Virus record (IMG/VR): IMGVR_UViG_3300024520_000508
Location: 1-23,310 of that record
Strand: one strand, 5' to 3'
Origin: a virus
DNA length: 23,310 bases
The first letter of the stretch is position 1; each line of letters starts with the position of its first letter. Shown one piece after another: positions 802 through 16,862 of this stretch. The notes under the pieces were generated by a model. It was not told where the DNA came from. It made no database searches and was given only the letters and a program-made list of their open reading frames with translations. The position numbers were made by a program, and so were the translations under genes.

Positions 802-2226
802 TTACGGTTTCCTGTACTGTACGCCGTCATCAATATAAACTGATCCTGGAGCCAAAGCGTCAAATTCGCCTTGTGTCGTTACGGTTGGGGGCGTTGCCGG
901 GTCTTTTGCACCGCCGACGTAGCCCTTTAGCTCATCCGAAAAAATAGATATTCCTTTAGGGTCAAGGCTGTTGTCTTTCGCGTATTGGTATCGTCCCATC
1001 ATCAACCGGCCTTGCTGCAGCACATCATCCATCTTTTGCTTAAACACCGTCGGCCCGTCGGCCATGGACGGCATAGATTCTTTAAGGCGTTTCATCTCGT
1101 GTTCATTCACAGCTGCGCCCGACACTTCAGACAAGAACATATTCAGGTTGTCAAATGTGCGCCGCCTGAATTTTGAATACTCTTGTTTTGCTCTTGTTTG
1201 CTCCGGCGATAACGACCCGCCAGCCTTTTCGAATACATCTTGCCCCCATTGCGTAAGCTGCTCGCCATATGTCAAAAAATCATCATTGTAAGATTTTTCT
1301 ATAAGGTCAGCGCGTGCAACCAAGTTCTGGGCATCAAAAATTTTCGCTTCAATCTTGCTTTTCGTCGCTCGCTGCAGCCCTATACTTTTCCCTGCGTCCG
1401 GCCCTTGTATGATCGTTGTCGAGCCGTCCGAGTTCGTTCTTATGGCAAAACCGCTTTTTTTAGCCTTTGCAAGCTCGGCTTTTTTTATTAAAATTTGCTG
1501 TGCATCGGTTGGCGAAATGTCAGATTTTGGGTCGATCCCTAAAGACCTCGCAACTAGGGCATTTTCTCCCGACATCCCGCCGCCTTTTTGGAGCGCACCC
1601 GCCGCAAATTCTGCCGCCTCTGCTGGGCTAGTCTTTTTAAGCCCTTGATAGTATTCATAATTTTGGATATCGGCCGTCTGCTTCTGCGCCGTTGGCCCGC
1701 TAATAGCACTCTGCAAACTTTTAAATTTAGCCGGATTCATCACGGCAAGTTCTATCCCGGCAGCTTTTCGCCGCTCATCTGGAGTCGTAAACCGATCCAT
1801 AAAGCCGTCTGTTTGAACGGATCCGTCAGGCTCGACCCCTTCTTCTTGTAAAATTGCTTGTCTCTCGCCAACAATTCGGGCGGCGTTTTCGTCTGATGGA
1901 TCGGCGTAGATACCGGCCAAAGAATTTATGTAATCGTCTTCAGTTCTTTGGCTTTTAAAGCCGACTGCGTCTTTCATTGCTTGCCGGAATTCAGGATACT
2001 TAACCGAGACTCTCATCATCTCGTCCACATCATTTGACTGATACGCTCGGCCCACTTCGCCCTGGATTTCCTCAACCCTCTTGACGGTTCGGGCTGCGGC
2101 CGCTTCTTTATTTTGTCTCGCAATTTTTCGTTCGCGTAAATCACCGGCCTGCATCATGAGGCTAGAAAGCCCCATAAGCGTTCCGCTTGTCGCCTGTGAA
2201 GGCGTGATAGAAAAACGATTTGCCAT
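802..2226 (-). CDS. P22 gp20-like DNA ejection/internal virion protein
   Basis: This 474-residue protein is almost the same length as P22 gp20 (471). It lies in the same place, after the gp7-like genes and before the gp16-like gene. The ATG at 2226 follows an AAGGTAA ribosome site. The sequence is mostly helical and charged: a Lys/Arg/Glu-rich stretch at about residues 30-60, then several short helical blocks with Asp/Glu-Pro turns, and no transmembrane segment. In P22, gp20 is packed in the head and ejected to form part of the trans-envelope DNA conduit. I see no diagnostic motif, so the call rests on size, position and composition. Confidence 0.6.
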   Translation of the reverse strand: MANRFSITPSQATSGTLMGLSSLMMQAGDLRERKIARQNKEAAAARTVKRVEEIQGEVGRAYQSNDVDEMMRVSVKYPEFRQAMKDAVGFKSQRTEDDYINSLAGIYADPSDENAARIVGERQAILQEEGVEPDGSVQTDGFMDRFTTPDERRKAAGIELAVMNPAKFKSLQSAISGPTAQKQTADIQNYEYYQGLKKTSPAEAAEFAAGALQKGGGMSGENALVARSLGIDPKSDISPTDAQQILIKKAELAKAKKSGFAIRTNSDGSTTIIQGPDAGKSIGLQRATKSKIEAKIFDAQNLVARADLIEKSYNDDFLTYGEQLTQWGQDVFEKAGGSLSPEQTRAKQEYSKFRRRTFDNLNMFLSEVSGAAVNEHEMKRLKESMPSMADGPTVFKQKMDDVLQQGRLMMGRYQYAKDNSLDPKGISIFSDELKGYVGGAKDPATPPTVTTQGEFDALAPGSVYIDDGVQYRKP

Positions 2227-2239
2227 GATATTACCTTGA

Positions 2240-2782
2240 TTAAAACATGTCTTTTATTCGGCCAAGTGTGCGGCCAATATCTGCGGACGGCATCGCCAGC
2301 GAATGCAACCCCATCAAAACGTTCGACGTTCCGCTGCCCTCTTTGACTCCGAGCTTCGGGAGCCATCTTTTGCCAAGATCCTGCGCCGCTACTTCACCGG
2401 TCACGATATCCTGATAATGTTTTTTTCCACCGCGCCGATATTTATCTTTTGCGCTCATTTCATTGGCAAAGATCACCGCCGCAAGTGCTGCCCATGGGCC
2501 CGCCGCGGCTGCCGCTCCACCGATACCGCTACCGCTCGCTGCCGCTGGTGCTGCGCCAACTCCAGCCCCAGCGCCGGACGCTGCCCCCGCTGCTGGTGCC
2601 GCTGTTGCTGCTGCACCACCTGTGCCGCCTGCGCCCCCAAATGATTTCATGAGTGGTAAAAGCGACTGCAGCCCACCTAATGGCGATTGCTGCTGTTGCC
2701 CTTGCGCTGGCCCTGGATATTGCAATCCGCGCTGGTAGTCCGGTCCCTCCGTGCGTCTCTGTGAATGGGTATATTTAAACAC
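2240..2782 (-). CDS. Ala/Gly-rich internal virion protein
   Basis: This protein has 180 residues. It starts at GTG 2782, which overlaps the stop of the gp7-like gene as TAGTG, so translation is probably coupled. A Gln/Pro-rich N-terminus (about 1-45) is followed by an extremely Ala/Gly-rich central block (about 48-105) ending in a hydrophobic patch (PWAALAAVIFA). The C-terminal part is soluble and includes KHYQDIVTGEV. The Ala/Gly block resembles the flexible, membrane-active parts of podovirus ejection proteins. P22 has no separate gene here, so it may be an extra ejection protein or a split-off part of gp7 or gp20. The high GC and repeated GCT/GCC codons make the block locally low in complexity. 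Confidence 0.6.
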   Translation of the reverse strand: MFKYTHSQRRTEGPDYQRGLQYPGPAQGQQQQSPLGGLQSLLPLMKSFGGAGGTGGAAATAAPAAGAASGAGAGVGAAPAAASGSGIGGAAAAAGPWAALAAVIFANEMSAKDKYRRGGKKHYQDIVTGEVAAQDLGKRWLPKLGVKEGSGTSNVLMGLHSLAMPSADIGRTLGRIKDMF

Positions 2783-3711
2783 TAGGCGGCCTCCTTCAAT
2801 ATTTCGGGTAATATCCCAAGCCTGGAATAATCGACCAGCAAAAAGTGGTTCCTTAAACTTACAGCTTCAGGAGCTTTCTTCAGCACTTCATCAGCCATAA
2901 CACCAACGGTTTTTCCGGTCAGCCCCATTTTTTGGGCAATCGGATTCCATGCAAAGCTGTAAATGTTTTGACCCATAAAATACCCGATTTTCTTGATATT
3001 TGTTTTTAAACGCCGATCTGAAAACATGCTGTATGCTGAAAGACCAAGTGCGCCAAGGCCAAGAAGATTTTGAGAGTTTGCAGAAGCGCCTTGCTGGTAT
3101 GCTTGCCCCGCCGCAACTTGCCCCTGTGCCGTTGCTGTCCCTGCGCCAAGCCGACCAGACGCCAAGGTTTGCCCGACTCCCGCCGTTTGTTCTGCAATCA
3201 TCGGAGCCAATGATGGCAACCCGGCAAGGCCCTGCAATCTATTCATTTGTTGATTATATAGACCCAGCATCGACCTGTTTTGAAGTTGCGTATTATAATC
3301 ATAAAGATTTTCTTGCACGTTTCCGGACCTTAAGCCACCGGTTGCTGAGGCATTTCTTAAGATCGCCTCCTCCCCGGCGTCGCCCCCGCTTATCAATGCC
3401 GCATAAAGCGGTGAGGCTGTAATCCGGTCAATCTCTGCCTGTTCAATTTCTGCCCGCGGCTGATCTTTGATAAGGCCAGACACACCAGAAAGACGCGTTA
3501 TTGCGGCCTCTCTTGCTGCCTGGGGGACTTGCTCCCGTTCTTTGAGGTATTCGAGCGACTCGCGCTGTGACTGCGCTGCAATCTCGGCAGCGTCGGTAGT
3601 CGCTCCGGCCTGTGTCGCTGCTGCCTGCGTGGATTGCTGCGCTGCCTGTTGCGCCGGTTCATTGCTACCACCGCCGAATATGCTACTGACTGCATCGCCT
3701 ATAAATCCCAT
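2782..3711 (-). CDS. P22 gp7-like ejection protein with C-terminal S74-type chaperone/protease domain
   Basis: This protein has 309 residues; ATG 3711 overlaps the preceding stop (TAATG). Residues 1-230 resemble P22 gp7 (229 residues), an internal protein ejected with DNA: Ala/Gln-rich helices with an ATGGLRSG motif at 123-130 and QQ/QG-rich repeats at about 150-215. Residues 231-309 look like an intramolecular chaperone (peptidase S74) domain. It opens with SDRRLK (Ser231, Lys236, the S-D-x-x-x-K spacing of the catalytic pair), followed by VGVMADEV (269-276) and LVDYSRL (292-298). S74 domains normally end phage fibres and tailspikes, trimerise them and cut themselves off before the Ser. Cleavage here would leave a 230-residue, gp7-sized protein. 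The domain is recognised by motif; its activity is inferred. Confidence 0.8.
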   Translation of the reverse strand: MGFIGDAVSSIFGGGSNEPAQQAAQQSTQAAATQAGATTDAAEIAAQSQRESLEYLKEREQVPQAAREAAITRLSGVSGLIKDQPRAEIEQAEIDRITASPLYAALISGGDAGEEAILRNASATGGLRSGNVQENLYDYNTQLQNRSMLGLYNQQMNRLQGLAGLPSLAPMIAEQTAGVGQTLASGRLGAGTATAQGQVAAGQAYQQGASANSQNLLGLGALGLSAYSMFSDRRLKTNIKKIGYFMGQNIYSFAWNPIAQKMGLTGKTVGVMADEVLKKAPEAVSLRNHFLLVDYSRLGILPEILKEAA

Positions 3712-4043
3712 TACTTGAACCTCGAATATAGAGTGAATTCATTAAAAACCGCTATTTTATCAAAACCAAAATGCTTTATCAGTTTTCCGACTGACTTTTT
3801 CGTTATTTTAGCAAAAATCACTTTGCACCATTCCCATTCGGTAAAAATAAACTCGCACCATTCCGGGATAGCTCGGCGCAATGCCATCGGTGTTTTTGTG
3901 GCGAAATGTGTTGTTATTGCAAGCCCTTGCCGCGCTGCTGAAAAAAATACCGTGGATTTCGTGGCATGCCACCGAAAAACTTTGTGGTTTTCATTTGTCG
4001 GCAAGCCGATGTTTTTATTTATATTTTGGATGATTTCAATCAT
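3711..4043 (-). CDS. P22 gp14-like (DUF2824, GNAT-fold-like) protein
   Basis: This 110-residue protein starts at ATG 4043, overlapping the preceding stop (ATGA). The pattern of a C-terminal GNAT-like half is visible: an ALRRAIPEWCEFIF stretch, then WCKVIFAKITKKSVGKLIKHFGF, in which a strand, a helix with KSVGKL and a final GF match acetyltransferase-like folds. P22 has gp14, a head-completion protein of the DUF2824 family, in this position between the needle and gp7. P22 gp14 is longer (172 residues), so this is a shorter version. A catalytic acetyltransferase role is not supported; a structural or assembly role is more likely. Confidence 0.6.
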   Translation of the reverse strand: MIEIIQNINKNIGLPTNENHKVFRWHATKSTVFFSAARQGLAITTHFATKTPMALRRAIPEWCEFIFTEWEWCKVIFAKITKKSVGKLIKHFGFDKIAVFNEFTLYSRFK

Positions 4044-5794
4044 ATAAGTTCTTTAAAATTAATCGTGCCGCGGTAGTTTTCGGCCTGACCGATTGCCGTG
4101 ACGATTAACCACATCTCATCGACATTCCCCAGCAAGTCCTTGCCTATTTTCAGCACACTTTCTATTTTCTGTGTTAACGAATCGGTATTATTTGAAAAAG
4201 AACCACGCCCCAAAACGATTCCGTCATCGGTAACAGTGTTATTATTATTTTCGGCGTACTCTACCACGCTGTTTGTCACGCTGTTCCACGTAACGGTCCC
4301 CGTATAGGTTGGATTTATAACGATTGCCCACAGCGTATTGCTATTTGACGTTGAAATAATTGACAGTTGTGCGGGCTCAATTGTATATTCAAAATTGTCT
4401 TCTGCTAGGCGAATTCCAATGAGCAACTCCGTAACATCTTTTGAACAGTTTATATCTGTTGAATTCTGCACGCCGTTCGGTATGCCATTTGGATTAAACC
4501 CCCCGCCGGAAACAACGCTTGAGCACATAGCCGACATACTGCCGCCGCCGCTGGTAGACGTGATTTCATAAGCGATTCCAAGGTTGGCAGTTCTCATATA
4601 AATTTCAGTAAACCCGCTGACGCTCGCATGTTTAAACGCATGTACATAATCTACCGTACCTTCAGGCGTGACAAATCCGACCAGGACGACACCAACACCA
4701 AGCCATTCCAGCTGCCCGGTGAGTATGTTGGTCGCGTCGATATCAAGCTCGAATCCAGTTTTGCCCGTTCCATCAGCAATATCAAGGTTCCAATTGGCTT
4801 GTGTCGCTGTCTCGGTGATTACGCCATTGTTTACAATATTCCAAGATAATATACCGGCGTTATTCTCAAAGAATACGCCGTTTTGTGGAGCGTTGGTTAT
4901 AGTAACCAACCCGACATCATCATAATCAACGAGGCCACCTCTTTTGCGTTGCCCTACTTCGGTAGACCACATGCCAGTCATAAAAAACTCATGACTTTTT
5001 GCAGGCTGATATTTAAACCGCTGTTTTGTCTGCCTGACTACATAATCGCCCGGCGCAACCGTCGTTAGTGTTTTCTTTGACTCGCTTCGCGAATAAGCGC
5101 TTGTAGCCGTGCCATTTAATAATTCAGCCCAAAAAAGATCGTCAGAAATTCCAATTGTCAATGAGTTGTCAAATATTGAAAAAGGTTCTGCAGTTTTTAG
5201 ACGTCCAAAGGCGTCCTTCTGCTCGTCAAGGGACACAAGGAGATTCCCAAATGGGGATGTATTTATGTTTGTAAATTTGCCCGCTGGCGTTTTTCCGGTC
5301 AAAACTGCCTTTGTCAATGTGGCATCATCATCGGCAAATATATCATCTTGTATCCGGTGTGAAGAAGCCTTGAAGCCGCTTTTTTTAAGTACCGGCTGAA
5401 GTGTGAAACTCGTTTGAGCAATCAGCCCGTTCGTGTATTTAATCCGCACATATCGCGCTTTTGGGCTAAACGTAAGCTGCTTCCCTATATCCGCCGTTAT
5501 TGCAAACGGGTCAATTTTCAATACTGTCGAACCGTCAGCGCTCCATTGTATTTCAAGTCCATCGTCGACACTCGTCTCGTCTGAGAATACGCCGACTAAC
5601 AAGGTGCCATAATTTAACGTATCCGTCCACACACCAGTAAAAACGCCCGATATACCGAGTGGCGTACTTGTCGAATTAGCAACGTCAACAATATTTTCCT
5701 GAATGATTTTAAGCTGTTTCGACGCATCAACATCGGCCAGGTTTCCGCTTGAACCACTTTGTATCTTTACTTGTCGGATTAAAGTCATTACCAC
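4040..5794 (-). CDS. Large virion tail/fibre protein with beta-rich N-terminal domain
   Basis: This 584-residue protein overlaps the previous gene by 7 nt. Its N-terminus (about residues 5-135: RQVKIQSGSSGNLADVDASK, then TSTPLGISGVFTG, GLEIQWSADG and ARYVRIKYTNG) matches a domain I recall from many phage structural proteins, a beta-sandwich often followed by a KxSSHRI segment (here residues 141-147) and a DDDATLTKAVLTG segment. The rest is Asn/Thr/Ser/Gly-rich beta-type sequence typical of receptor-contacting or baseplate proteins. P22 has its needle, gp26, in this interval. I see no gp26-like coiled coil, so this protein and its neighbour may form the tail tip or fibres instead. No S74 domain or lectin-type variable region was seen at the C-terminus. 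Confidence 0.7.
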   Translation of the reverse strand: MVMTLIRQVKIQSGSSGNLADVDASKQLKIIQENIVDVANSTSTPLGISGVFTGVWTDTLNYGTLLVGVFSDETSVDDGLEIQWSADGSTVLKIDPFAITADIGKQLTFSPKARYVRIKYTNGLIAQTSFTLQPVLKKSGFKASSHRIQDDIFADDDATLTKAVLTGKTPAGKFTNINTSPFGNLLVSLDEQKDAFGRLKTAEPFSIFDNSLTIGISDDLFWAELLNGTATSAYSRSESKKTLTTVAPGDYVVRQTKQRFKYQPAKSHEFFMTGMWSTEVGQRKRGGLVDYDDVGLVTITNAPQNGVFFENNAGILSWNIVNNGVITETATQANWNLDIADGTGKTGFELDIDATNILTGQLEWLGVGVVLVGFVTPEGTVDYVHAFKHASVSGFTEIYMRTANLGIAYEITSTSGGGSMSAMCSSVVSGGGFNPNGIPNGVQNSTDINCSKDVTELLIGIRLAEDNFEYTIEPAQLSIISTSNSNTLWAIVINPTYTGTVTWNSVTNSVVEYAENNNNTVTDDGIVLGRGSFSNNTDSLTQKIESVLKIGKDLLGNVDEMWLIVTAIGQAENYRGTINFKELI

Positions 5795-6648
5795 CAGCCC
5801 TCAGTGACTCCAAAGTTTATATCAATTATCTCAGCATCATACATTGGAAATGGAGATGTATCGCCGAATAGTTTTTCTGCGCCGCTCGGCGTGGGCAACA
5901 GGCTATTCCCACTGGTTCCTGTGTTTGTTAATTTATACCGCTTACCACTTGATCCAGCCGGAAGGTTTGCAATAATCGCCCCTCCGTCTGTGTCGGCAAA
6001 TATAATCTCATCGGTTGCAAGTACCGTGTATGGCGAATCCGCAAAAACGATTCTTTTCGTTGCTGGCGGGTTGGTTACGATCCCTGTTACGACTAGATTT
6101 CCGGTAATCGTGAGAGTCACCCCGTCCCACAATAAATTTGCATCACCGATGATATACCCACCAGAAACAAACGTCACCCTATCATTCGGTATAACCGTCT
6201 TATATGCTTGTGGAAATACTTCACCATTTATATTTAGTGCCGGTGTCGCCTTGTCCCACTGAAAATTTACATCCTCTGCAAACTCTGTCCCGTCAACATA
6301 AATAACCGACTTATCAGATAAAATTGTTTTATACGTTTGCGGGAAAACCGATCCGTTGATCAAAAGTGTTTTGGTAGCGTTTATCCATTTAAAATCTAAA
6401 CTGCTTGTCGCATACTTTGGTGCTCCGCTGGATACATACAGCACCGTTGTCGCCTGTAGATCCGTTTCAAAATTTTCAAGTTTTTTATCCCCAGTTTCGT
6501 CTACTGCTTCGGCAAGGGTAATCTCGTTGGCTTTTATGTTTAGGTAGTCTTCTATCAGCGCCGCTGGCCACCGCCCATCAGTTGACCTGTTCAACTCATC
6601 AGCGCTCAAAACAACTTGATTTTCTCTTATTTTCTGTGTTGTAGCCAT
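5788..6648 (-). CDS. Tail fibre/needle-like protein with ~42-residue beta repeats
   Basis: This protein has 286 residues; its ATG at 6648 directly follows the gp10-like gene. The N-terminal 60 residues are helical. Three related segments follow (about 67-108, 109-151, 152-184), recognised by FKW/FQW/LLW at 87-89, 129-131 and 172-174, LLINGSVFPQTYKT against LNINGEVFPQAYKT, and a third short copy TLTITGN. These resemble the beta stalk repeats of phage fibres. The last 90 residues (YTVLATDEIIFADTDGGA, NLPAGSSGKRYKL and so on) match a common phage fibre C-terminal beta domain. By position it may take the place of the P22 needle gp26, but the architecture is fibre-like rather than a coiled-coil needle. 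Confidence 0.65.
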   Translation of the reverse strand: MATTQKIRENQVVLSADELNRSTDGRWPAALIEDYLNIKANEITLAEAVDETGDKKLENFETDLQATTVLYVSSGAPKYATSSLDFKWINATKTLLINGSVFPQTYKTILSDKSVIYVDGTEFAEDVNFQWDKATPALNINGEVFPQAYKTVIPNDRVTFVSGGYIIGDANLLWDGVTLTITGNLVVTGIVTNPPATKRIVFADSPYTVLATDEIIFADTDGGAIIANLPAGSSGKRYKLTNTGTSGNSLLPTPSGAEKLFGDTSPFPMYDAEIIDINFGVTEGWW

Positions 6649-8076
6649 TTAGCTTACGTCCATGATCATCAATCCGAAAGCCATCCGTGAGCGTGTCTCC
6701 CCGCGGAAACGAAAACCGACCCACTCGCGCGCATAACCCAGCACCCGCCGTATAAATCTTTGATTTAAATCGCCCGGATTGCTGTATAGCTGGAACCATT
6801 CAGCCACATAATTTGCGCCATCATAAGTTAACGCTCCATACAAATATGCATCGCTCAATGTGTTGCGGCCGCGAATGGTTTTGAGTTCGACTTTGTTTAT
6901 AGAAAGCGTTTCCAAATTAATCAGCGGCGTATAGAGAAAAAAGCGGTTTAGAGCGTCATAATTTGCGAAAAGGTCATTGTTGATTGCGCCAACCCGGCCA
7001 TCTATTTTATCACCATAAAGCCATTGTTTATTATCGGATATCCGGCTATCCACCACGCCATTTATGCCTCTATAGTTTGCCCCGGTACTGTCACTCTCAA
7101 GAATAGTCCAGGCTGCGGCCTTCCCCAGTCTTTCCCCTATGCTGGCGTTGAAACACAGCGTTTCATTTGGTAAGTGTACAAGAATAAAAGAAACGTCCTC
7201 ATCCGTTCGGGACTCCATGCGCATGCCCGCAAGTTCCGGTTCACTGTAAGCATTTATAATTTTGTCAATTTCCCGCGTTGATATCTTCACAGACTTACCG
7301 ACATCAAGAATATGGACACCCACGTCAGATTCACGTATCCCGCCTGTTATATAGAAGGTCCCGCCCGATTCACATTTGGCATGAGTTGCAACGATTCCAA
7401 TTTTTTGTGCTCTGCTTTTTATTCTCTGAAATGCAAAGTTGTCAGTTGCCACATTTTCAAAGTATTCGGTAGAATATCGGCCAAAGACGACAACCTGATT
7501 AAATGTTGTCTTCATCAGCCCGAGCGACGGATCCGGCATAAACTCAGCCGTTGCGAATTTTAGCGGATCAATGGCCGTTTCGTCGGCCAGGTCCGTATGG
7601 TAAAGATATTCGCCATCCGTAAGGAAGTAATAACCGTCAATCCATACGCCGTCTATAGGGCTTCCTAAATCCGGGTCAGTGACTTCGACAAAACCACCAC
7701 CAGGAGAATAAAGAAAAAATTTTCCGTCGGCAATTATGCCCTGTGTATTGAAGCTGTAAAAATCTTTCATCCTGCATTGAGACGATCCGGGAACTGTACC
7801 GAGCGTAACCACGGTTCCGGCAGAAGAGATTTTGACTAAACTCGTTCCGCTCACCCGGTAATGATCACCAAATCTTTCGTTGTAACTCCCCGCACGGTCA
7901 ATGCCCGGAACAGTGGCGAACTGCTCAAGCCCCGGCCAAGATAACAAATAGCCCTTTGCGCCGAGTATTTGCTTTTCCACGGCGTACATGTTCACCGACA
8001 GAGCGTCCCGGTAGTCCGTCTCCGGGGTGTCTGGTATTCTGTCGCCTTTTATGAGGGTTATGGGAAATTCAGGCAA
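6649..8076 (-). CDS. P22 gp10-like tail stabilization (hub) protein
   Basis: This protein has 475 residues against 472 for P22 gp10. Recognisable conserved blocks include the N-terminal YRDALSVNMYAVEKQILGAK followed by GYLLSWPGLEQF (P22: VNMLATPKEIL and GYLRSFPGI), STEYFEN, IDKIINAYSEPELAGMRMES (P22: IEKIIRSYTAEEMATGVMET), ILVHLPNETLCFNAS and WVGFRFRG near the end. This is the Phage_stabilise (gp10) family. In P22 it forms a hexameric beta-propeller-like ring below the gp4 ring and plugs the packaged head. It overlaps the preceding small gene by 8 nt, and the next gene begins immediately after its stop. Confidence 0.93.
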   Translation of the reverse strand: MPEFPITLIKGDRIPDTPETDYRDALSVNMYAVEKQILGAKGYLLSWPGLEQFATVPGIDRAGSYNERFGDHYRVSGTSLVKISSAGTVVTLGTVPGSSQCRMKDFYSFNTQGIIADGKFFLYSPGGGFVEVTDPDLGSPIDGVWIDGYYFLTDGEYLYHTDLADETAIDPLKFATAEFMPDPSLGLMKTTFNQVVVFGRYSTEYFENVATDNFAFQRIKSRAQKIGIVATHAKCESGGTFYITGGIRESDVGVHILDVGKSVKISTREIDKIINAYSEPELAGMRMESRTDEDVSFILVHLPNETLCFNASIGERLGKAAAWTILESDSTGANYRGINGVVDSRISDNKQWLYGDKIDGRVGAINNDLFANYDALNRFFLYTPLINLETLSINKVELKTIRGRNTLSDAYLYGALTYDGANYVAEWFQLYSNPGDLNQRFIRRVLGYAREWVGFRFRGETRSRMAFGLMIMDVS

Positions 8077-8275
8077 TTAATCGCCTCTCAATCGTTTCAG
8101 TTTGTCCGCAACGCGGACATAGTCCGAGCCAGTTGGTACTCTCTAATACGACTCTAACGTCTTCATAATCCGATCCGGCAATTGCGGCATATAGAAGCTG
8201 CTCGACCGAAAGGCCACAAAATATTTCGCTTTCGTTCTGTAGATCTAGCACTATTTTTTTATCATTTTTTTTCAT
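8069..8275 (-). CDS. Small CPRCG-containing protein of unknown function
   Basis: This 68-residue protein starts at ATG 8275, just 10 nt below the gp4-like gene, and overlaps the gp10-like gene by 8 nt, so it sits tightly inside the tail operon. The N-terminus is Lys-rich (MKKNDKKIVLDLQ) and there is a C-terminal LGLCPRCGQTET. One CxxC pair alone would need to dimerise or use other ligands to bind zinc. The ribosome site is weak (AGG 12 nt upstream), which fits coupling to the upstream gene. P22 has no gene here. It could be an adaptor between gp4 and gp10 or a non-structural passenger; I cannot tell. Confidence 0.65.
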   Translation of the reverse strand: MKKNDKKIVLDLQNESEIFCGLSVEQLLYAAIAGSDYEDVRVVLESTNWLGLCPRCGQTETIERRLIA

Positions 8276-8285
8276 GCAAAATCGC

Positions 8286-9839
8286 CTAAACTGTCAAGTC
8301 AACGCCGCCATGAGCCTGCAATAAGAAGCCATCCGCAGAAATAAGATTAAATCCATCCGCAGAAATAAGATTAAAAAGATTACCCTCTGAAGTTGAGATT
8401 TCCGCCGATTCTGTAATCGCAAAATTGATATTTCGGGTTATAATCCTGCCAGCTGATGTTGTGACGGTGATCTCAACTTGCTGGAATGAATTGCACCCAG
8501 CGGAATTGTCGGCCCTTATGCGATAATAAATATCCGTGGTGGAAGTGGGCCAATTGCTTACAATCGTCAGGCCATCGTCTGATCCGATATTGTATGTTGA
8601 TATCCGCTCTCCCGCCTCAAGATAATATTCGAAATGCTCCGTAAAGTCCTGAACATCCCCAACAAACATTTTATTGGTGGCGCATTCTTGTGGCGCTCTG
8701 GCTGCAGGGGTATAGAACCGTCTGAATTGTCGCCCGTACCGGTTCCCAGATCCGAGGGGCATTCTTGCAGAATATTGTGTTGTCCTTACAGTGGCGCTCT
8801 GAGATAACAGAAATGCGTATTGTGCGCTGCTTTGGGCGCGTCGGTCGGGGTCAACGGGTAGTTTAAAGTTTGGCATGAGGCGAACGCCAAGTATTGCCTC
8901 AAAAGCAAATTGATATTCTGGTTTTAACCCGGATAACGAGTTTTCATCTGGTGTGTCTTCAAAGTGGTATCCGACGCATACGCCACGTCCAAAAAATTCG
9001 CTCGCCATCATTTCAAGGCGGCGCAATGCAAGCATGTTTTCGGATGGAGTGGCATCGGATATTAAATCAGTTATCCCCATAAAAGAATATGCACCATTGA
9101 TAATATCAAGCTTTCTTGTCGGAAACTGGACGTCGCGTGTAAGTGGCGAGCGTATTGCTAAAAGTGATGATAATTCCTGCTGTTCTTTTAAAAGGGCGGC
9201 ATCCGGTTGCTCGCCTTTCCCGAAATTCGAAAACAGTCTGACAGCAAGGTTAACCTCAAAGGCATATTTATATTTGCGAGCAATCCCAGCGGCTGAGCTA
9301 ACACTCGGATTTACTTCAAAATTGTATCCTATCTTGATATTTTGCGCTTCGAAAAGCTCTGCCATATCTTCAAGGCGGTTGAGGGCAAGAATATTGTCGG
9401 TCGAACCTGGATCAATCATAAGCTGTGACGCATTCAGCAGGCTGTACGCTCCGTTGAGTAGATCAAGCTTTCGAAATGGGCTTTGTATTTCACGTAGAAG
9501 CGGGGTGTGTGGAAGGAGAAAAGAAAAAGATTCTTGCTGTTCTTTTGCCAGATTTCCGTCAGGAGCTGCACCTTTTCCAAAGTCGGAAATAAGGCGAACC
9601 GCTAAATTTGTTTCGAATGCGTATTTATATTTTAGTGCGATTCCAGCGACTGAGCCGATAAGCGGCGTTGCTTCAAAGTTATAATCAACGGCTATATTCT
9701 TGCGCTTCCACTCTTCGGCCATTGCTTCGAGCCGGGAAAGCGCAAGGGTATTCTCGTCCGTTGACGGCGTTACCGTAATTCCGGATATCCGCATCAATGA
9801 ATATGCGCCGTTGATTATATCGCTTTTTAAAACAGCCAC
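8286..9839 (-). CDS. Triplicated P22 gp4-like tail accessory factor fused to an Ig-like domain
   Basis: This protein has 517 residues, about three times P22 gp4 (166). Three copies of one domain begin at exact 119-residue steps: KSDIINGAYSLM (5), KLDLLNGAYSLL (124) and KLDIINGAYSFM (243). Each has the ALxRLExMA helix, a (G/D)YxFE motif, a YKYAFExNLAVRL helix and an FGKG-type turn. The third copy runs into SARMPLGSGNRYG (358-369), matching P22 gp4 SRMPTGSGN. Residues about 395-478 look like an Ig-like beta domain (YYRIRADNSAG, VEITVTTSAGRIITRNI). The tail carries two copies of NLISADGF. P22 gp4 attaches under the portal, completes the head and has peptidoglycan hydrolase activity. The family call rests on motif and position; what the extra copies do is inference. 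Confidence 0.88.
   Translation of the reverse strand: MAVLKSDIINGAYSLMRISGITVTPSTDENTLALSRLEAMAEEWKRKNIAVDYNFEATPLIGSVAGIALKYKYAFETNLAVRLISDFGKGAAPDGNLAKEQQESFSFLLPHTPLLREIQSPFRKLDLLNGAYSLLNASQLMIDPGSTDNILALNRLEDMAELFEAQNIKIGYNFEVNPSVSSAAGIARKYKYAFEVNLAVRLFSNFGKGEQPDAALLKEQQELSSLLAIRSPLTRDVQFPTRKLDIINGAYSFMGITDLISDATPSENMLALRRLEMMASEFFGRGVCVGYHFEDTPDENSLSGLKPEYQFAFEAILGVRLMPNFKLPVDPDRRAQSSAQYAFLLSQSATVRTTQYSARMPLGSGNRYGRQFRRFYTPAARAPQECATNKMFVGDVQDFTEHFEYYLEAGERISTYNIGSDDGLTIVSNWPTSTTDIYYRIRADNSAGCNSFQQVEITVTTSAGRIITRNINFAITESAEISTSEGNLFNLISADGFNLISADGFLLQAHGGVDLTV
8331..8378 (-). repeat. 24-bp tandem duplication at the 3' end of the gp4-like gene
   Basis: Two near-identical 24-bp units lie head to tail (8331-8354 and 8355-8378, core atccgcagaaataagatta on the plus strand). 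They are in frame and encode NLISADGF twice. This looks like a recent slippage or duplication event in a surface-exposed C-terminal tail. Confidence 0.9.
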
Positions 9840-10156: not shown

Positions 10157-10184
10157 TATTGGTTGCTTAATATTGGTTGCTTAA
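10157..10184 (-). repeat. Two 14-bp tandem repeats spanning the coat stop codon
   Basis: TATTGGTTGCTTAA (plus strand) occurs twice in immediate succession at 10157-10170 and 10171-10184. The second copy contains the coat TAA (10181-10183). In the transcript the unit reads TTAAGCAACCAATA. It is probably a slippage duplication; no function is evident. Confidence 0.85.
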
Positions 10185-11458
10185 TATTTTACAGCAACTC
10201 CGCAGTTCCCCGGATCGTTGATCACCACCCCCCATCGCGCCGTAATACGAAAATCAAAATCAAGCGTAATGATATCGCCCTTGTACATGCAATACAGGGT
10301 CAACCCGTTTGATAGCGTTTTCGTAAGCACGTTAGCGGCTTGATATGACTGAAAAAGTTCACTCGGTATCGTTCCCTTGACCACGGTAACCGCGTCCTTT
10401 TCCCAGAAAAGATTTGTCTTTGCGGATGCGTCGATATTCATCCGGTCCATTGTGGCCCCGGCTAAAATCCGAGTGTTTACAGTGGATGAAGGTTTTTCGG
10501 CCACACCGAGCGCCGGATCGTCAAATGCAATCGGTTTCGGAAAAATTGTCACGTTATTGCCGTTGATATCCACAATTGTGGCCGTGAACGGCTTCTGCGT
10601 GGTGACTTTCGTGTCACGACCGATCCACTCGACAGGAACCGCAGCGTTTGCAAACTGCACCTTATCACCTACGGCATACCCGGACGCATCAACCACAGGA
10701 ATGATGGCTTGCCTGTAATCAATCGGCGTCCTTGCTCGCGTCGCCGGGTTGTAAATAGTACCTTCGGGAATAAACGATTGAGTGCCGACGACCGTCGTTG
10801 CCGGATTCGCCCCGCCCGTAATCAGCGGAAGAAAAGAACCGGATAAAATATCATAGTCGGCCACATCCGTTCCAACCATTCCCTTTTTCCATGCGTATTC
10901 CTCCGGTCGCCCGGTAAGATTGTCTTTATTCGCCAAATCGCTGGCGTAGGCTCTTTTTGTCGGGTTGTTAAGTAAAAAATACCGCTTTAAGTTCACGGCC
11001 TGTAAATCGTCCTGGAGTTCCTGCCCCCGGCTGATGAAGTCGAAGCCGTTTGCATCGTTTGCCCGGATATAGTGCGCACCGTGTGCGGCAATGGTGTTCG
11101 CAATCTCGCTATTTAAATGCGACGCCATTTTTTTTACAGACGCTCTCTGTGTCTTGCGCCAGTATTCCTCTGTCCGCAAGTCAAGGGCTTTCTGGTTGAC
11201 CAGATCATTTTTTAATGTTCCGAGTGTGTACGGACACTGTTGTTCTACAATGCCGCGCGCCTGTCCACTCAGGTCATCGCCCTCGATAATGCGTCCGTCC
11301 TGCTGGACCGGTACCCAATATTCATCATTGGATTTTTGCATCATGCCCGGGTCCGGAGTATTCGAATCGCACATATCAAGAAGTAAGTCTTGAGTCTCGA
11401 AAAATTCAAGCGTCGATTCCCATATCACTTCAATCGTTTTCGCTGCCGTTAATGCCAT
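10181..11458 (-). CDS. P22 gp5-like major coat protein
   Basis: This 425-residue protein (P22 gp5 has 430) follows the scaffold gene, as in P22. The shared pattern is clear: N-terminal MALTAAKTIEVIWESTLEFF; DEYWVPVQQDG...EGDDLSGQA, like P22 WMPVEQE...EGWDLTDKA; and LRTEEYWRKTQRASVKKMAS, like [20 protein letters not shown]. An inserted beta domain follows TQSFIP, and the C-terminal block has ITIFPKP-type NVTIFPKPIAFDDPAL, TNLFWEKDAVTVV and FDFRITARWGVVINDP. This is the P22_CoatProtein family (HK97 fold with an insertion domain), building the icosahedral shell with the scaffold. The ATG at 11458 has an AAGGTGA ribosome site. The downstream hairpin and tandem repeats are annotated separately. 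Confidence 0.95.
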   Translation of the reverse strand: MALTAAKTIEVIWESTLEFFETQDLLLDMCDSNTPDPGMMQKSNDEYWVPVQQDGRIIEGDDLSGQARGIVEQQCPYTLGTLKNDLVNQKALDLRTEEYWRKTQRASVKKMASHLNSEIANTIAAHGAHYIRANDANGFDFISRGQELQDDLQAVNLKRYFLLNNPTKRAYASDLANKDNLTGRPEEYAWKKGMVGTDVADYDILSGSFLPLITGGANPATTVVGTQSFIPEGTIYNPATRARTPIDYRQAIIPVVDASGYAVGDKVQFANAAVPVEWIGRDTKVTTQKPFTATIVDINGNNVTIFPKPIAFDDPALGVAEKPSSTVNTRILAGATMDRMNIDASAKTNLFWEKDAVTVVKGTIPSELFQSYQAANVLTKTLSNGLTLYCMYKGDIITLDFDFRITARWGVVINDPGNCGVAVKY

Positions 11459-11478: not shown

Positions 11479-12465
11479 TTACCATGCGGAAGTGTCTGCC
11501 CCTGCTGCCTTTGCCCGGTCCTTGAGGTCAAACGCCTGCTGGGTATAACCATTGTTTTTGATTATATCGGCGTATTCCCTTTTTTGGCCCCCAGCGTTGG
11601 CACCTTTCGTGCCATCGCCGCCGTGAACCGTTGCTGGGGGAGGGGCATTGCTTCGTGGTATTTTTATATTTGTTAATTGCGCTTTCAATTCGCCAAGATA
11701 CATCGCGGCCCTTATGCCGCTTTTATCCTCTCTTAACAGATTTGAAAGCATTGCTTTTTTTCCGGCGCTCACCCCGACCGCGAAAAAAACTTTTTCCGAT
11801 CCTTCACCTGTCTTAGATATGAGCGCATTCGTTATTCCATCACCACCACCTGGCACAACCTCATCAATAGCAGCCCTTACGGCCATATCGGCGCTTTCGT
11901 ATTTCTCCGGGCTGATTTTATGTTTTGTAAAAAGAGCGGTTTTTCTCGTTTCGTGAGCAGCTAAATCTGCTTGGAGTCGCTCGTTCGCTTTTTGCTCTTC
12001 TCGCTGTGCCGTGTTCGCCGCCGTATGCCCATTTATACCCGCCGATACTTGACTGTCTATATACTTGGCCATTGCCGCCTTGTAATCAAGCCCATCATGA
12101 AAATCATCAGGGTCAGGAACGTCGGTAGTGGCTGCACTTTGCGGTGGAGCGATTGCCCCAGCCCTCAAGGCTTCGTTTTCAGCCCTCAGCCGGTCGCTTT
12201 CGGCGGTGGTTTCATTCAATTTTTTTTTCGCAGACGATAGTTTTCCGGTCACGGCGTATAGTTGTTGTTCAACCGATCCTTTTGCTGGTGCCGGTGCTTG
12301 CTCATCGGCTTCATCTGCTTTCATCCATTCAGGGACTCCTATTTCTTCTTCTTCACTATCGGATTCGTCAGCTGCTTTGCCGCTCTCATCCGCTGCATCC
12401 GGCAATACCGGCGTTTTGTCCCCTTGTGGTTTTTCTTTTTCCTCAAGATTTAAATCGTCGCCCAT
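11479..12465 (-). CDS. P22 gp8-like scaffolding protein
   Basis: This 328-residue protein (P22 gp8 has 303) lies immediately upstream of coat with a 20-nt gap. The first 65 residues are very acidic, with SDSEEEEIGVPEWMK, followed by a coiled-coil segment at about 65-103 (LSSAKKKLNETTAESDRLRA and the next heptads), Ala/Gln/Lys-rich helices, and a C-terminus ending in DLKDRAKAAGADTSAW. Elongated, acidic, coiled-coil proteins in this slot are scaffolds that direct coat assembly and leave the head before DNA enters. ATG 12465 has an AAAGGA ribosome site 9 nt upstream. The leader in front of this gene carries a repeat shared with the leader of the neighbouring Acb2-like gene. Confidence 0.88.
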   Translation of the reverse strand: MGDDLNLEEKEKPQGDKTPVLPDAADESGKAADESDSEEEEIGVPEWMKADEADEQAPAPAKGSVEQQLYAVTGKLSSAKKKLNETTAESDRLRAENEALRAGAIAPPQSAATTDVPDPDDFHDGLDYKAAMAKYIDSQVSAGINGHTAANTAQREEQKANERLQADLAAHETRKTALFTKHKISPEKYESADMAVRAAIDEVVPGGGDGITNALISKTGEGSEKVFFAVGVSAGKKAMLSNLLREDKSGIRAAMYLGELKAQLTNIKIPRSNAPPPATVHGGDGTKGANAGGQKREYADIIKNNGYTQQAFDLKDRAKAAGADTSAW

Positions 12466-12510
12466 GATTTTTATCCTTTCATGTAAGGCGTTTATCTGCT
12501 TCCCGCAGCG

Positions 12511-12537
12511 GGTTGCATTTAGTCAGTTTGCTTCTGC
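12511..12537 (-). repeat. Leader element copy 2 (upstream of scaffold)
   Basis: This 27-nt segment on the transcript strand matches copy 1 (12915-12941) at 21 of 27 positions, and all six differences are transitions. Similarity continues weakly downstream to a shared GATAA...TACA. It ends 45 nt before the scaffold ATG. Just downstream, CCCGCTGCGGG can form a small hairpin. No coding frame is apparent in this 80-nt gap (12466-12545). Confidence 0.8.
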
Positions 12538-12545
12538 ATAGTACC

Positions 12546-12866
12546 CTAATCAGCTTCGTGCGTTCCTTCTGTCCCTGCTTCCTCGCGCCTACTGGTTCTG
12601 GCATTAAGCCAGTGAAGCGCCTCGTCAAGCTTAGTTATTGCTAAAGCATTTTCTCTACAGGCAAATTTTGTTTGATAATATTCAATTCGCTGTTTCGCTG
12701 CATAAATTACCGATTCAACAAAAGCGCCATTAGGCTCTTCCCTTTTCTCACCTCTACCCAGCGGCCCATTCTGCCACACGATATCCAGCATATTCCCGGA
12801 GACATTCCCGCCTGCGGGGTGCCCTTTTTCATCGTAAACGTTTTTCCATTGTGGAATTATTAGCAT
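12546..12866 (-). CDS. Acb2/Tad1-type cyclic-nucleotide sponge (predicted anti-CBASS/anti-Thoeris)
   Basis: The protein has 106 residues from ATG 12866, preferred because GGGGGG lies 4 nt upstream; ATG 12878 adds four residues and has no ribosome site. The C-terminal half carries the Acb2/Tad1 hairpin-domain signature: WQNGPLGRG (31-39), NGAFVESVI (46-54), then FACRENALAITK and LDEALHWLNART (68-91), ending with GTEGTH (98-103). In characterised phage Acb2 proteins (including T4 Vs.4) two helices pack into a hexamer that binds cyclic di- and trinucleotide signals and so blocks CBASS; related Tad1 proteins bind Thoeris signals. It is not part of the P22 morphogenetic set, and it sits between portal and scaffold with related leader elements on both sides. 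The family call is strong; the ligands are unknown. Confidence 0.85.
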   Translation of the reverse strand: MLIIPQWKNVYDEKGHPAGGNVSGNMLDIVWQNGPLGRGEKREEPNGAFVESVIYAAKQRIEYYQTKFACRENALAITKLDEALHWLNARTSRREEAGTEGTHEAD

Positions 12867-12892
12867 CGTTCCCCCCATTGTATTAAGTATTG

Positions 12893-13035
12893 TATCCGGT
12901 TATCCTCCCGGCAAGGTTGCGTTTAATCGGTTCGCCTCCGCTATGTGCTGCGTGGGTGGCTGGGGCTTATTTTATCCCGACTTTTAGCTCTCACGGCCTC
13001 ACGACCGCAAGCACCCCGCAAGATATAACCGGATA
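12893..13035 (-). ncRNA. Predicted structured leader RNA upstream of the Acb2-like gene
   Basis: This 163-nt gap (12879-13041) has no coding frame I trust but much base-pairing potential. TATCCGGTTAT (12893-12903) and ATAACCGGATA (13025-13035) form a perfect 11-bp closing helix. Inside it, 13012-13021 pairs with 12948-12958 (about 10 bp with one bulge), 12993-13008 forms a 6-bp hairpin with a GUGA (GNRA) tetraloop, and 12963-12978 forms a short GGG/CCC hairpin. Nested helices suggest a cis-acting RNA in the transcript between portal and the sponge gene. I do not recognise a known riboswitch or Rfam family. The structure was found by eye without energy calculation. Confidence 0.45.
12915..12941 (-). 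repeat. Leader element copy 1 (upstream of Acb2-like gene)
   Basis: This is the partner of 12511-12537, with 21 of 27 identical positions and only transition differences. It lies in the 3' part of the structured leader, ends 36 nt before the upper ATG of the sponge gene, and ends with the shared GCAACC. Confidence 0.8.
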
Positions 13036-13041
13036 GGCCAA

Positions 13042-15213
13042 TCATACACCCACCTCCGGCATAGCCATGCCAAAAAGCTCGTCATCGCTCATCGCCGCAA
13101 AATCCGGAAGCACAATTTCTTTTTCTTTCAATAAGTTATCAAGCTGCACGCCGGTAGTCTCAGCGCCAGCCTTATCAATGGTCGCACCTGCTTTTTGTGC
13201 TTCAATTTGTAATCTCATGCGCTCATTGATTAGTTTCTGCTCTTCGATCCTCAGCTTTGCCTTGGTGTTGGCGTCGTCGAGCTGCATTTTTATACCGGCC
13301 TGCTCCGAATCCATCATATCTGATTGGCCCTTTAGCAGCTCAGCTTGTCCTACAAGAGTAGCCGCGTCGGGCTGTTGCGCCTGCTCTGCCTGCTGTTCAA
13401 GCAGCGCTTTTTCTTCGTCTGTGTCCGGCTCTGTGATGCCGTCAAGGATTAATTGTTTTCTCGCATGCTTGCGGATATCGTCGAAGTTTACGCCGTCTAT
13501 CAATTCAAGACGCTTTAACATCAGCGCTCGCCGCATCGGATCATCCGGCGGCATAGCAAGAAGCATTTCGCCAATCTCTGATGATGTTTGTTCTTTTTGG
13601 CTGGTATATGATTTCCCAATTTCTGAACGAACATCAAAAGCAACGTTTCTCAGGTCATTAAGGTAAACAATATCGCCACTATCTTCATCAATAACGGCTT
13701 CCATGATTTCAATCTCTTTTTCTGTACCATCCGGTGCCATGCCTTTGACTTTTCGCGGCACATCATAGATTCGGGACGCCATTGATATATAAATCTCGGC
13801 GTCCCGCCTTTTTGCATATTTAAAATGCCGCTGAAAGAATGCCGTCTGCTTATCAAGCTTCGCCGTAAGCGCGTGGATAGCCTTTCCTGAAACGTCGGGA
13901 TCGGCTATATCTTGCGGGACGCCGGGGTCTGCAACGTCTGAGATTGCTTCCGTAGCGAGCGGGAGCAGCGCCGCCACTGCTGGCGGGATTTCAGCGCTTG
14001 TTGTTTTGCCTACAGGTCCACCCGGCAAAGGGCTGCCATCTTCAGCCAAACGATTTTGCTTTGCATATGGGTAATTGTCATCTGGCCCGTTTATATCGAA
14101 ATATTTTTCTTGCCCTGCTATCTGCTCTTCCAAATAAATGTCTTTCGCCCTCGGCGCTCTGGCTGCTAAGTCCGCAAGGTATGAATACAAAAGGTTCCGC
14201 AGCATAGCCGGGTCTTTAGCGCATCGCACAAGCCCGCGTGTTACCGGCTCACCTTCAACATACGCATACTCCCCATAATACGGAATTATCGGTATATGGT
14301 CGCATGCGATCACCGACTCATCGAGAATAGCCGCTCCTGATGCGATATATTTTGTGACCTTCCAGCTTTCAACTTTTTTCTCGTCAACCACCTTGTATCC
14401 AAGCTGGTCCATATCATCAAGGACGTGCTCAAGCTCTGACTCTCGCAAAATCATTTCTTGCCCGAAAGGGTTGACCATCGTCAAGATCGTTTCTTTTGAT
14501 TTTTCCCTGTAATAAAAATCAACTACATATATTTTTTCTGACTCCCCGCCGTAGCTCCAGGGGAATTGATAGGAGTGTTCAGGATATGCAAAGTCGGCGG
14601 CGCTTAGTTTTTTGTGGCCGTCGTAGCTGTCGATATCCTCGCCGGTTAACTCTTTGACAAGGTCTTTGTATCCCTCGCTGCTGTATGGCTTGAGTACAGA
14701 TACATATTTTGCGTCTGACTTATCAATCATTTTGGCGTTAGGATCCCAATAAACATTATTATTTGCTTCGTATATTGGGTATCTCCGGATAACTTGCGCT
14801 TTGTCATCCGTGAAATTCGATTCATATTCGTGCCTCAACTCCCACGCACCAGTGCCGCAAATTACAGTTTCCTGTCTTGCGTTCTCATATGCAAACAATG
14901 ATGTGTTGTGATTGTCGTCAGCCCTATATATTTTATCCGCTGTTTCTCCAGCGTCTTTGCGGTCTTCATCACGTGGAGAAAAATCAATCTGTATTGGGTT
15001 GGCCTCTTGCCCTTCAATAGCATCCTTAACAGCCTTTCCTAGCGTGTCAAACTCACCTTTAAAGGCAAGCGGACATTCTTCGATGAAGTTCTCCCACTGG
15101 CCGCCAACGACAAGCTTGAAAACCATATCATGGGCACCGTCACGCCGGTTTGTCTGGCCGTGCTCAAATGCTTTGTCGTGCAGTTCTTTGAGTTTTGTTA
15201 AATCCATTGACAT
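13042..15213 (-). CDS. P22 gp1-like portal protein
   Basis: This 723-residue protein (P22 gp1 has 725) lies in the expected place after the terminase genes. P22-type portal features include the N-terminal helices (about 20-60), FSPRDEDRKDAGETADKIYR (79-98) followed by ARQETVICGTGAWELRHEY, the WDPNAKMIDKSDAKYV segment and the region around GLVRCAKDPAMLRNLLYS. A long helical C-terminus has a Gln/Ala/Glu-rich coiled coil (EQQAEQAQQPDAAT onward), equivalent to the P22 barrel. Dodecameric portals form the DNA entry ring, dock terminase and later the gp4 ring. ATG 15213 directly follows the TAA of the preceding 57-residue gene; a second ATG lies two codons in. Confidence 0.95.
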   Translation of the reverse strand: MSMDLTKLKELHDKAFEHGQTNRRDGAHDMVFKLVVGGQWENFIEECPLAFKGEFDTLGKAVKDAIEGQEANPIQIDFSPRDEDRKDAGETADKIYRADDNHNTSLFAYENARQETVICGTGAWELRHEYESNFTDDKAQVIRRYPIYEANNNVYWDPNAKMIDKSDAKYVSVLKPYSSEGYKDLVKELTGEDIDSYDGHKKLSAADFAYPEHSYQFPWSYGGESEKIYVVDFYYREKSKETILTMVNPFGQEMILRESELEHVLDDMDQLGYKVVDEKKVESWKVTKYIASGAAILDESVIACDHIPIIPYYGEYAYVEGEPVTRGLVRCAKDPAMLRNLLYSYLADLAARAPRAKDIYLEEQIAGQEKYFDINGPDDNYPYAKQNRLAEDGSPLPGGPVGKTTSAEIPPAVAALLPLATEAISDVADPGVPQDIADPDVSGKAIHALTAKLDKQTAFFQRHFKYAKRRDAEIYISMASRIYDVPRKVKGMAPDGTEKEIEIMEAVIDEDSGDIVYLNDLRNVAFDVRSEIGKSYTSQKEQTSSEIGEMLLAMPPDDPMRRALMLKRLELIDGVNFDDIRKHARKQLILDGITEPDTDEEKALLEQQAEQAQQPDAATLVGQAELLKGQSDMMDSEQAGIKMQLDDANTKAKLRIEEQKLINERMRLQIEAQKAGATIDKAGAETTGVQLDNLLKEKEIVLPDFAAMSDDELFGMAMPEVGV

Positions 15214-15387
15214 TTATTTAACTCTATACCATCGCGTTGTTTTCTGGATCCCCTCGTCAAATATGGCCGTAATGGTCATAAGTATGTGTGTATCTGTGTC
15301 GTACCAAAAACAATCTTTTTCCGGCAATTCTTTTTCATTTAAAATGGCCTGCGCGTCGCTCATCGCTTTTTTTAACTCGGCTTTCAT
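15214..15387 (-). CDS. 57-residue protein between large terminase and portal
   Basis: This frame is short but well supported. ATG 15387 overlaps the terminase stop (TAATG), and its TAA (15214-15216) abuts the portal ATG, so it exactly fills the 173-nt space between two firm genes. The protein begins MKAELKKAMSDAQAILNEKE and includes DCFWYDTDTHILM and a C-terminal TTRWYRVK. The first 20 residues are probably helical, the rest beta-like with aromatic residues. I do not recognise the family. The position suggests a packaging or head-assembly helper, but a neutral passenger is possible. Confidence 0.8.
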   Translation of the reverse strand: MKAELKKAMSDAQAILNEKELPEKDCFWYDTDTHILMTITAIFDEGIQKTTRWYRVK

Positions 15388-16862
15388 TATCTTCTTGCCC
15401 CTGATCCCATTCGGCCTAATGTTTTCGGTGTGATTACTGGTCGTTTGATTCCAATATTTCCGATTGGCACGGCAAACCTTCTCATCATGTAAGCATATCT
15501 TGCAGCATCAAGCATATCATCCATAACCTTTACTATCTTTACTTTCTCAGCGCCTTCGCTTGTTCGCACAAGCGCCCTATGATATTGCCGGTGCTCCTGC
15601 ATGTATTCGGGTTGCCCGCGAAAAACCTTATAAGTTCCATTGCCTTGTCTGGTACTTATCTCATATAGCCCATTGCCGACAGACACACCACCATTCGGCC
15701 ATGTGGCATGCTCATGAAGAAGAGAAAAGCCCGCATTTATCCAGTTTTGTTTCTGCTGCATGGCAACATCTTTGCCTTTTTCGCCATTCAATCCGTCAGC
15801 GGGCCACGCTACAGGGACAGCCGCCGCCCAATGCTTAATCGCTCCCCATGCGTTATTAGCGCTACACCGTGATTGTTTCCACGAATTAATAACATAGATT
15901 ATATCATTATCCGGGTTAATCGCCAATTTAACAAACGCTTGCGGGTGGTGGTCTCCGAAATCCATGCCGATAATCACCGGCCAAAATTCAGGAATCGGAA
16001 ACGGAGCACACAGTATATAATCATCGGCTATATCGTATATGCGCCCATGTCCGAGCATGGGTTCGCCCTCTGATCTCATTTTGCGTTGATACGCTGGATA
16101 TTGAGCGAGAACCCTCTCTTTTTTCTCTTCCGTCATGTGGGGGGCTTCATTCCACCCCACTTGCATATATGATTGAGCTTTTGACGGCGTATCACTAAAT
16201 TGAATAACGAGTTCGGTACGGCCATTCTCAGGCGTAAATGTATAAATTATTCTACCGCCCTTGCCATTGTCACCGTTAATTGTCCGGGTCAATAGCTGCG
16301 GTCTTATGCTCTGGTCTTTTGGCTCTTCATCAACATGCACCCAATCAACAACATCACCCATGATTGCGTGCTGGCCCTGCGTGTATGACCAAAACTGAAC
16401 GACTGATGTTCCGCCCTTATGCTTAACGCGCACCGTCCGCATGGCATTGACTGTACCCTGTGCGGACTCCCAGCTTATTATCTTGTCGGCTGATATCAAC
16501 CCGCCGTCAAAACCTTGCTGCGGTGTGTATGCCCCGAATAAAGCGTTTTGCAACAGGTCTCTTGATTTCTCCATAGAGTAACCAAGGCACCAAATAACCG
16601 GTGGACTATCAAATTTATAGCCGGGGTAATCTTCAGGGTATTCGCCGGTTAGGTGATAAGCGTCAATCGTTGTGCCTACTCTGGTCTTGCCGATCTGATT
16701 TGCTGCACACAGACAGCTTTCAAAATAGTTGGCTGTGTTCTCGCAAAATTTGCGCTGCCAATCGTACCACGCGCTGTAATATCGTGACAGCTTCGCCGCT
16801 TCGTATCTGCGCTCTTTCTCCTCAAGTAGCTGTATGAGTTCTATTTTATCAGCCTTCGTCAT
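15387..16862 (-). CDS. terL: Terminase large subunit (P22 gp2-like)
   Basis: This 491-residue protein (P22 gp2 has 499) is the packaging motor and headful nuclease. The N-terminal ATPase shows Walker A AANQIGKT (53-60), Walker B WVHVDEE (174-180) with the catalytic Glu pair, and a coupling motif TFTPE (208-212). The C-terminal RNase H-like nuclease shows IGMDFGDHHP with Asp301 and DDMLDAARYAYM with Asp452 as likely metal ligands. ATG 16862 lies inside the end of the small-terminase gene (14-nt overlap), typical of co-translated terminase pairs. By homology to P22, headful packaging from a pac site is expected. A pac site would often lie within or near the small-terminase gene, but I could not identify one. 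Confidence 0.95.
   Translation of the reverse strand: MTKADKIELIQLLEEKERRYEAAKLSRYYSAWYDWQRKFCENTANYFESCLCAANQIGKTRVGTTIDAYHLTGEYPEDYPGYKFDSPPVIWCLGYSMEKSRDLLQNALFGAYTPQQGFDGGLISADKIISWESAQGTVNAMRTVRVKHKGGTSVVQFWSYTQGQHAIMGDVVDWVHVDEEPKDQSIRPQLLTRTINGDNGKGGRIIYTFTPENGRTELVIQFSDTPSKAQSYMQVGWNEAPHMTEEKKERVLAQYPAYQRKMRSEGEPMLGHGRIYDIADDYILCAPFPIPEFWPVIIGMDFGDHHPQAFVKLAINPDNDIIYVINSWKQSRCSANNAWGAIKHWAAAVPVAWPADGLNGEKGKDVAMQQKQNWINAGFSLLHEHATWPNGGVSVGNGLYEISTRQGNGTYKVFRGQPEYMQEHRQYHRALVRTSEGAEKVKIVKVMDDMLDAARYAYMMRRFAVPIGNIGIKRPVITPKTLGRMGSGARR

Follow-up and report, generated by a model that had tools for sequence, protein, structure and literature searches.

What is a small protein with the features of an anti-defence nucleotide sponge doing between the portal and scaffold genes of a P22-ordered head operon, and when would it be produced? 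The window analysed here is the whole of IMG/VR record IMGVR_UViG_3300024520_000508 (23,310 bases), which is probably a fragment of a single phage genome. All of its recognised genes are encoded on the minus strand, in the order replisome-organizer-like gene, Holliday junction resolvase, terminase small and large subunits, portal, sponge, scaffold, coat, and head-completion and ejection genes (Table 1). A preliminary description had announced a predicted Acb2/Tad1 sponge at this position without giving a strand. The open reading frame is real, lies on the minus strand and contains all four of the motifs quoted for it, and its insertion into the head operon is borne out by the flanking matches to PF16510, phrog_8865 and PF11651. 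Its ATG at 12866 is preceded by a Shine-Dalgarno-like GGGGGG run, which a second in-frame ATG at 12878 overlaps, and 175 nt separate the gene from the portal gene. A nucleotide search with the operon against the phage collection returned no match. As a separate observation, the head-completion adaptor of the window consists of three tandem copies, 37–58% identical, in one open reading frame, whereas it is single-copy in the relatives with a detectable gene.

Table 1. Features of the window and of the loci compared with it
Feature	Source	Positions	Strand	Basis
Tad1-type nucleotide-sponge gene, 106 aa	window	12546..12866	-	PF24729, PHROG 2428, PDB Tad1 by sequence and predicted fold
P22-type portal	window	13042..15213	-	P22_portal PF16510, E=5e-110
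Head scaffolding protein	window	11479..12465	-	phrog_8865, E=1e-6; position; tblastn to the equivalent place in relatives
Major coat protein (P22 gp5-like)	window	10181..11458	-	PF11651, E=2e-49
Terminase large subunit	window	15387..16862	-	PF03237 and PF17289
Leader RNA copy A, two consecutive H-type pseudoknots	window	12896..12940	-	parsed stems; window-free model
Leader RNA copy B, fold as copy A, other stem sequences	window	12496..12536	-	parsed stems; window-free model, first half
Head-completion adaptor (P22 gp4/Ad3-like)	window	8286..9839	-	
HNH endonuclease in portal–scaffold gap	L167	8188..8748		
LPD23 protein in portal–scaffold gap	L150	5210..6349		
LPD23 protein in portal–scaffold gap	L157	8136..9665		
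ART-PolyVal protein in portal–scaffold gap	L084	2864..4757		weak match
ART-PolyVal protein in portal–scaffold gap	L102	8171..9910		weak match
HNH-like in portal–scaffold gap	L171	2931..3500		by eye only
Small opposite-strand genes in portal–scaffold gap	L130, L165, L167			
Further leader RNA example	L086	4320..4366		
Further leader RNA example	L083	4548..4590		
Terminator-like hairpin and T-run	L085	4190..4230		
Terminator-like hairpin and T-run	L089	7910..7950		

Profile searches place the protein in the hairpin-domain sponge family, as had been proposed. PF24729 (Acb2_Tad1_hairpin) matched it at E=8e-6 with 26.3–26.5 bits, marginally below the gathering score of 27; the homolog alignment comprises this protein and 26 others from IMG/VR, and each of the 27 matched PF24729 at E≤0.001. 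The protein also matched phrog_2428 (E=6e-18) and, with phmmer, the solved Tad1 8kbb (E=8e-10); NCBIfam and PADLOC gave no match. When the 27-homolog profile was run against the PDB, the matches consisted only of Tad1 chains and phiKZ gp184 (CmTad1 8kbb, E=8e-27; CbTad1, 2e-18; gp184, 1e-10), and no Acb2 sequence was matched by this profile. Relatives of the sponge are encoded by 78 IMG/VR loci, with identities of up to 73%. A CREN-A-ITK core is invariant and R, R and G positions are common to the homologs, and most of these residues also occur in ligand-bound Tad1 structures.

The structure predicted for the single chain (mean pLDDT 84.9) has strands at residues 6–11, 17–24 and 27–31 and helices at 50–67 and 71–97; its N-terminal part, which diverges from CbTad1, is predicted only moderately well, in blocks at pLDDT 75–90. 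This fold agrees with those of CmTad1 and CbTad1 across 97–99 of the 106 residues. Foldseek returned only Tad1 below E=0.001 (E=3e-5, TM 0.73), and VIA-align superposed 97 residues on CmTad1 with Z 9.3 (rmsd 2.2, 33% identity), whereas none of the other helical proteins listed exceeded Z 7.2. Acb2 relatives ranked low in the second structure comparison, a ranking that by itself was not counted as evidence. An Acb2-type fold, with an N-terminal helix and two further helices and no beta-sheet, was rejected because N-terminal strands are predicted and no Acb2 profile match was found. Given profile hits confined to Tad1 and gp184, the predicted strands and helices, and the Foldseek and VIA-align results, the sponge is of Tad1 type; of the double label "Acb2/Tad1" in the preliminary description, the Tad1 half stands and the Acb2 half does not. 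The 106-aa protein is thus a new member of a known family, in the Tad1 branch of the Acb2/Tad1 sponges.

Comparison with the known sponges shows where this member departs from them. Tad1 (CmTad1 8kbb/8kbc, CbTad1 7uav/8kbf, SBSphiJ7) combines a beta-sheet with two long helices, as predicted here, and shares with our protein the CREN...ITK core and a GT tail; CmTad1 has also been solved with cA3, and SBSphiJ7 Tad1 is 38.6% identical over 98% of the query. However, the present sponge is shorter and its N-terminal part has diverged, and its gene follows a scaffold-type leader in a head operon, whereas the genes around SBSphiJ7 tad1, in a myovirus of 153 kb, are unannotated. Acb2 (PaMx33 gp24 family, T4 Vs.4) has the helical hairpin and the Pfam domain in common with the sponge (T4 Vs.4, Z 6.4 over 55 residues) but carries an N-terminal helix and no beta-sheet (PMC12043709). 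The gene for one Acb2, PaMx41 ORF24, is on the strand opposite the structural genes and adjoins replication genes, while the sponge gene here is on the operon strand. A third relative is phiKZ gp184 (8y6v chain I), whose C-terminal domain is homologous to the sponge.

The sponge gene is flanked by two copies of an RNA element of about 45 nt, which include a 27-nt direct repeat with 78% identity between copies A and B over 27 nt. The fold, worked out with 80 portal relatives, consists of two consecutive H-type pseudoknots with compensatory changes. Copy A forms the stems CGG/CCG, GCG/CGC, CCT/AGG and CCGG/CCGG, and copy B forms CAG/CUG, GCA/UGC, CCC/GGG and CUGC/GCAG; both pseudoknots are kept despite mostly different stem sequences. 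Measured from the end of its last stem, copy A lies 29 nt ahead of the sponge ATG and copy B 30 nt ahead of the scaffold ATG (12465). In the first pseudoknot, S1 is 100% paired, with its middle pair occurring as UA, AU and GC, and S2 is 87–90% paired, as GCG/CGC and also as AUG/CAU and GCA/UGC. Its covariation was 0.381 against 0.139 after shuffling; none of 500 shuffles reached 0.381 and sliding abolished the signal. Once the window rows were left out, the score was 0.362 against 0.134. In the second pseudoknot, 32 sequences contained 22 different 5' half-stems for each of S3 and S4, nearly all of which pair with their own 3' half and rarely with those of other sequences (7% and 13%). Since the S3 and S4 stems were chosen as the best parse, a shuffle test with equal freedom is the fairer control; there the parser scored 17.5 against 2.8 shuffled for the first pseudoknot and 21.3 against 8.3 for the second. 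A model built without the window sequences recovered copy A (E=7e-9) and, of the diverged copy B, only the first half (E=0.0016). When Rfam covariance models were run on the window and on four relatives, no match overlapping the leader appeared at E≤5, and a literature search found nothing on the element.

In the portal relatives without a sponge, the leader is single-copy and lies upstream of the scaffold gene in the portal–scaffold gap. Searched as a DNA pattern against all of IMG/VR, it occurred in seven contigs, each time in this gap. The leader search across 79 sources gave one match each in 49 (E from 2e-11 to 0.8, with the weakest dozen at 0.1–0.8). The distance from leader to scaffold ATG was 20–29 nt in 11 of 12 relatives checked; in the twelfth, the leader is 13 nt from the first possible scaffold start. 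Four relatives in bacterial genomes had no detectable copy. Translational control of scaffold synthesis is one possible role of the leader. In some relatives a terminator-like hairpin with a T-run directly follows the portal gene and precedes the leader (Table 1), and in some, -10-like boxes lie closely upstream of the leader; these features hint at a separate scaffold transcript in some relatives. Scaffold synthesis in P22 is autoregulated, and our literature search found no paper on this autoregulation. The leader was not found in P22, IME10, HK620 or MW202475, so nothing ties it directly to the scaffold system of P22.

In this phage clade, the portal–scaffold gap serves as a cargo site. The interval from portal stop to coat start is about 1.0–1.15 kb in most relatives and longer in about a dozen distinct loci with accessory genes, which include HNH, LPD23 and ART-PolyVal genes and small genes on the opposite strand (Table 1). 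The LPD23 and ART-PolyVal proteins share the insertion site with the sponge, but they are unrelated to it, larger, and not accompanied by a second copy of the leader; in those cargo-carrying relatives for which a leader was found, it is single and adjoins the scaffold gene. The sponge gene itself occurred in none of the 97 portal-relative loci, and doubling of the leader, with one copy per gene, was found in the window only. The idea that the leader travels with the sponge gene was rejected, because none of 34 sponge-homolog loci has it. Two other origins of the flanking repeat, as the remnant of a coding repeat (AEANRLNAT) or as a plain insertion-site duplication, were dropped in view of its single copy in sponge-less relatives and its compensatory base changes. 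As relatives have a single leader and no sponge, the sponge probably joined the head operon by insertion into the gap, together with duplication of the scaffold leader.

The place of the gene in a P22-ordered head operon means that the sponge is probably expressed late, as had been surmised. Such timing had been called unexpected for an anti-defence factor, a view that is not borne out: capsid proteins trigger Thoeris, and homologs in several phage groups adjoin terminase, portal or coat genes. In the Thoeris systems of staphylococci and streptococci, the activator is the major capsid protein (PMC12578639), and according to the discussion section of PMC11312562, CBASS is triggered by a prohead protease or through capsid changes. 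L054 and L008 have the sponge homolog immediately upstream of terminase, and L012, L017/L019 and L003 have it no more than about 2 kb upstream; in L042 it lies between terminase and portal, and in L041 between portal and coat. In other loci, such as L002, L010 and L060, it is far from terminase. In the L041 region (1937–9641), which comes from a distant phage, the homolog follows SprT-like and PhoH-like genes, both named by eye from sequence alone. A sponge made alongside the capsid would meet the alarm signal as that signal arises.

These results lead us to favour, as a reasonably probable explanation, a Tad1-type sponge that is encoded in the head operon behind a duplicated scaffold leader, made late together with the scaffold, and sequesters alarm signals. 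By analogy with Tad1, the 106-aa protein would assemble as a hexamer made of three dimers and sequester cyclic trinucleotides of CBASS and type III CRISPR systems, and it would probably also take up gcADPR-type or dinucleotide signals. The tandem-pseudoknot leader, which in relatives belongs to the scaffold gene, is present in a separate copy ahead of the sponge gene. Late production under scaffold-type control would follow from this copy; the sponge would probably share both the timing and the leader-level control of the scaffold protein, and may thus be present while the capsid triggers of Thoeris and CBASS build up. A broader proposition, to which we give slightly less than an even chance, is that an undescribed family of tandem double-pseudoknot RNAs controls scaffold synthesis throughout a widespread P22-type clade and was duplicated before the sponge gene, thereby timing the sponge with the capsid.

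The preliminary description had offered two ways around the supposedly odd timing, namely carriage in the virion and a promoter of its own. In the first, the sponge would be loaded into the procapsid with the head proteins, injected with the DNA, and act at the start of the next infection. The precedent for such carriage is phiKZ gp184 (PHIKZ184), which is annotated as a virion structural protein, has been shown to be packaged and injected (PMC10449902), and ends in the domain of the sponge (40.7% identity over query residues 46–103, in addition to the profile match above). In a review, orf184 of CBASS-resistant phages is named as coding for a Tad1 (PMC12043709), and we take it to be the same gene as PHIKZ184; given this statement together with the structural annotation and the injection, a virion-borne Tad1 probably exists. 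Lactococcus phage 1706 (orf71) and Klebsiella phage Eowyn likewise have sponge matches that are annotated "structural protein", and the LPD23 and weak ART-PolyVal proteins of relatives occupy the same portal–scaffold site; phage polyvalent proteins have been inferred to be packaged and injected (PMC5512222). However, the domain of gp184 starts near residue 140 of 230, behind a long N-terminal extension, whereas the 106-aa sponge has neither such an extension nor a fusion to a head or ejection protein. Virion carriage of this sponge is therefore possible but unsupported, and we regard it as unlikely.

The second way around would make the gene an independent moron, expressed early or constitutively from its own promoter, with its operon position incidental. 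The HNH endonuclease and opposite-strand genes among the other accessory genes of the site are in keeping with this, and the 175-nt gap is big enough for a promoter. Yet a search for sigma-70-like promoters, the type covered here, found matches in the region at no more than chance level and none in the gap, and the gene is on the operon strand with a scaffold-type leader at scaffold-type distance, which makes independent expression decidedly unlikely. Finally, a Tad1-fold protein could have taken on a role in head assembly or head structure and be devoid of sponge activity, a scenario suggested by the head-operon location and by the structural annotations of some distant homologs. We consider it highly improbable, as the protein retains the conserved core of ligand-binding Tad1 proteins, and the lack of the sponge gene in the portal-relative loci argues against a general assembly factor of the clade.

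The sponge family was known already; what is new is the doubling of the structured leader and the wiring of the gene into the head operon. Many phages, among them the isolates Pseudomonas phage AH02 and Vibrio phage 1.275.O, carry this leader in the scaffold gene, and it seems to be a structured RNA that has not been described before; it is the most novel element of the locus and merits separate study. Were the sponge indeed coupled to the scaffold leader, the counter-measure would be timed to the appearance of its capsid trigger. It would also be silent early in infection, at a stage when it might be detected by systems such as Panoptes, which respond to sponge activity (PMC12657218).
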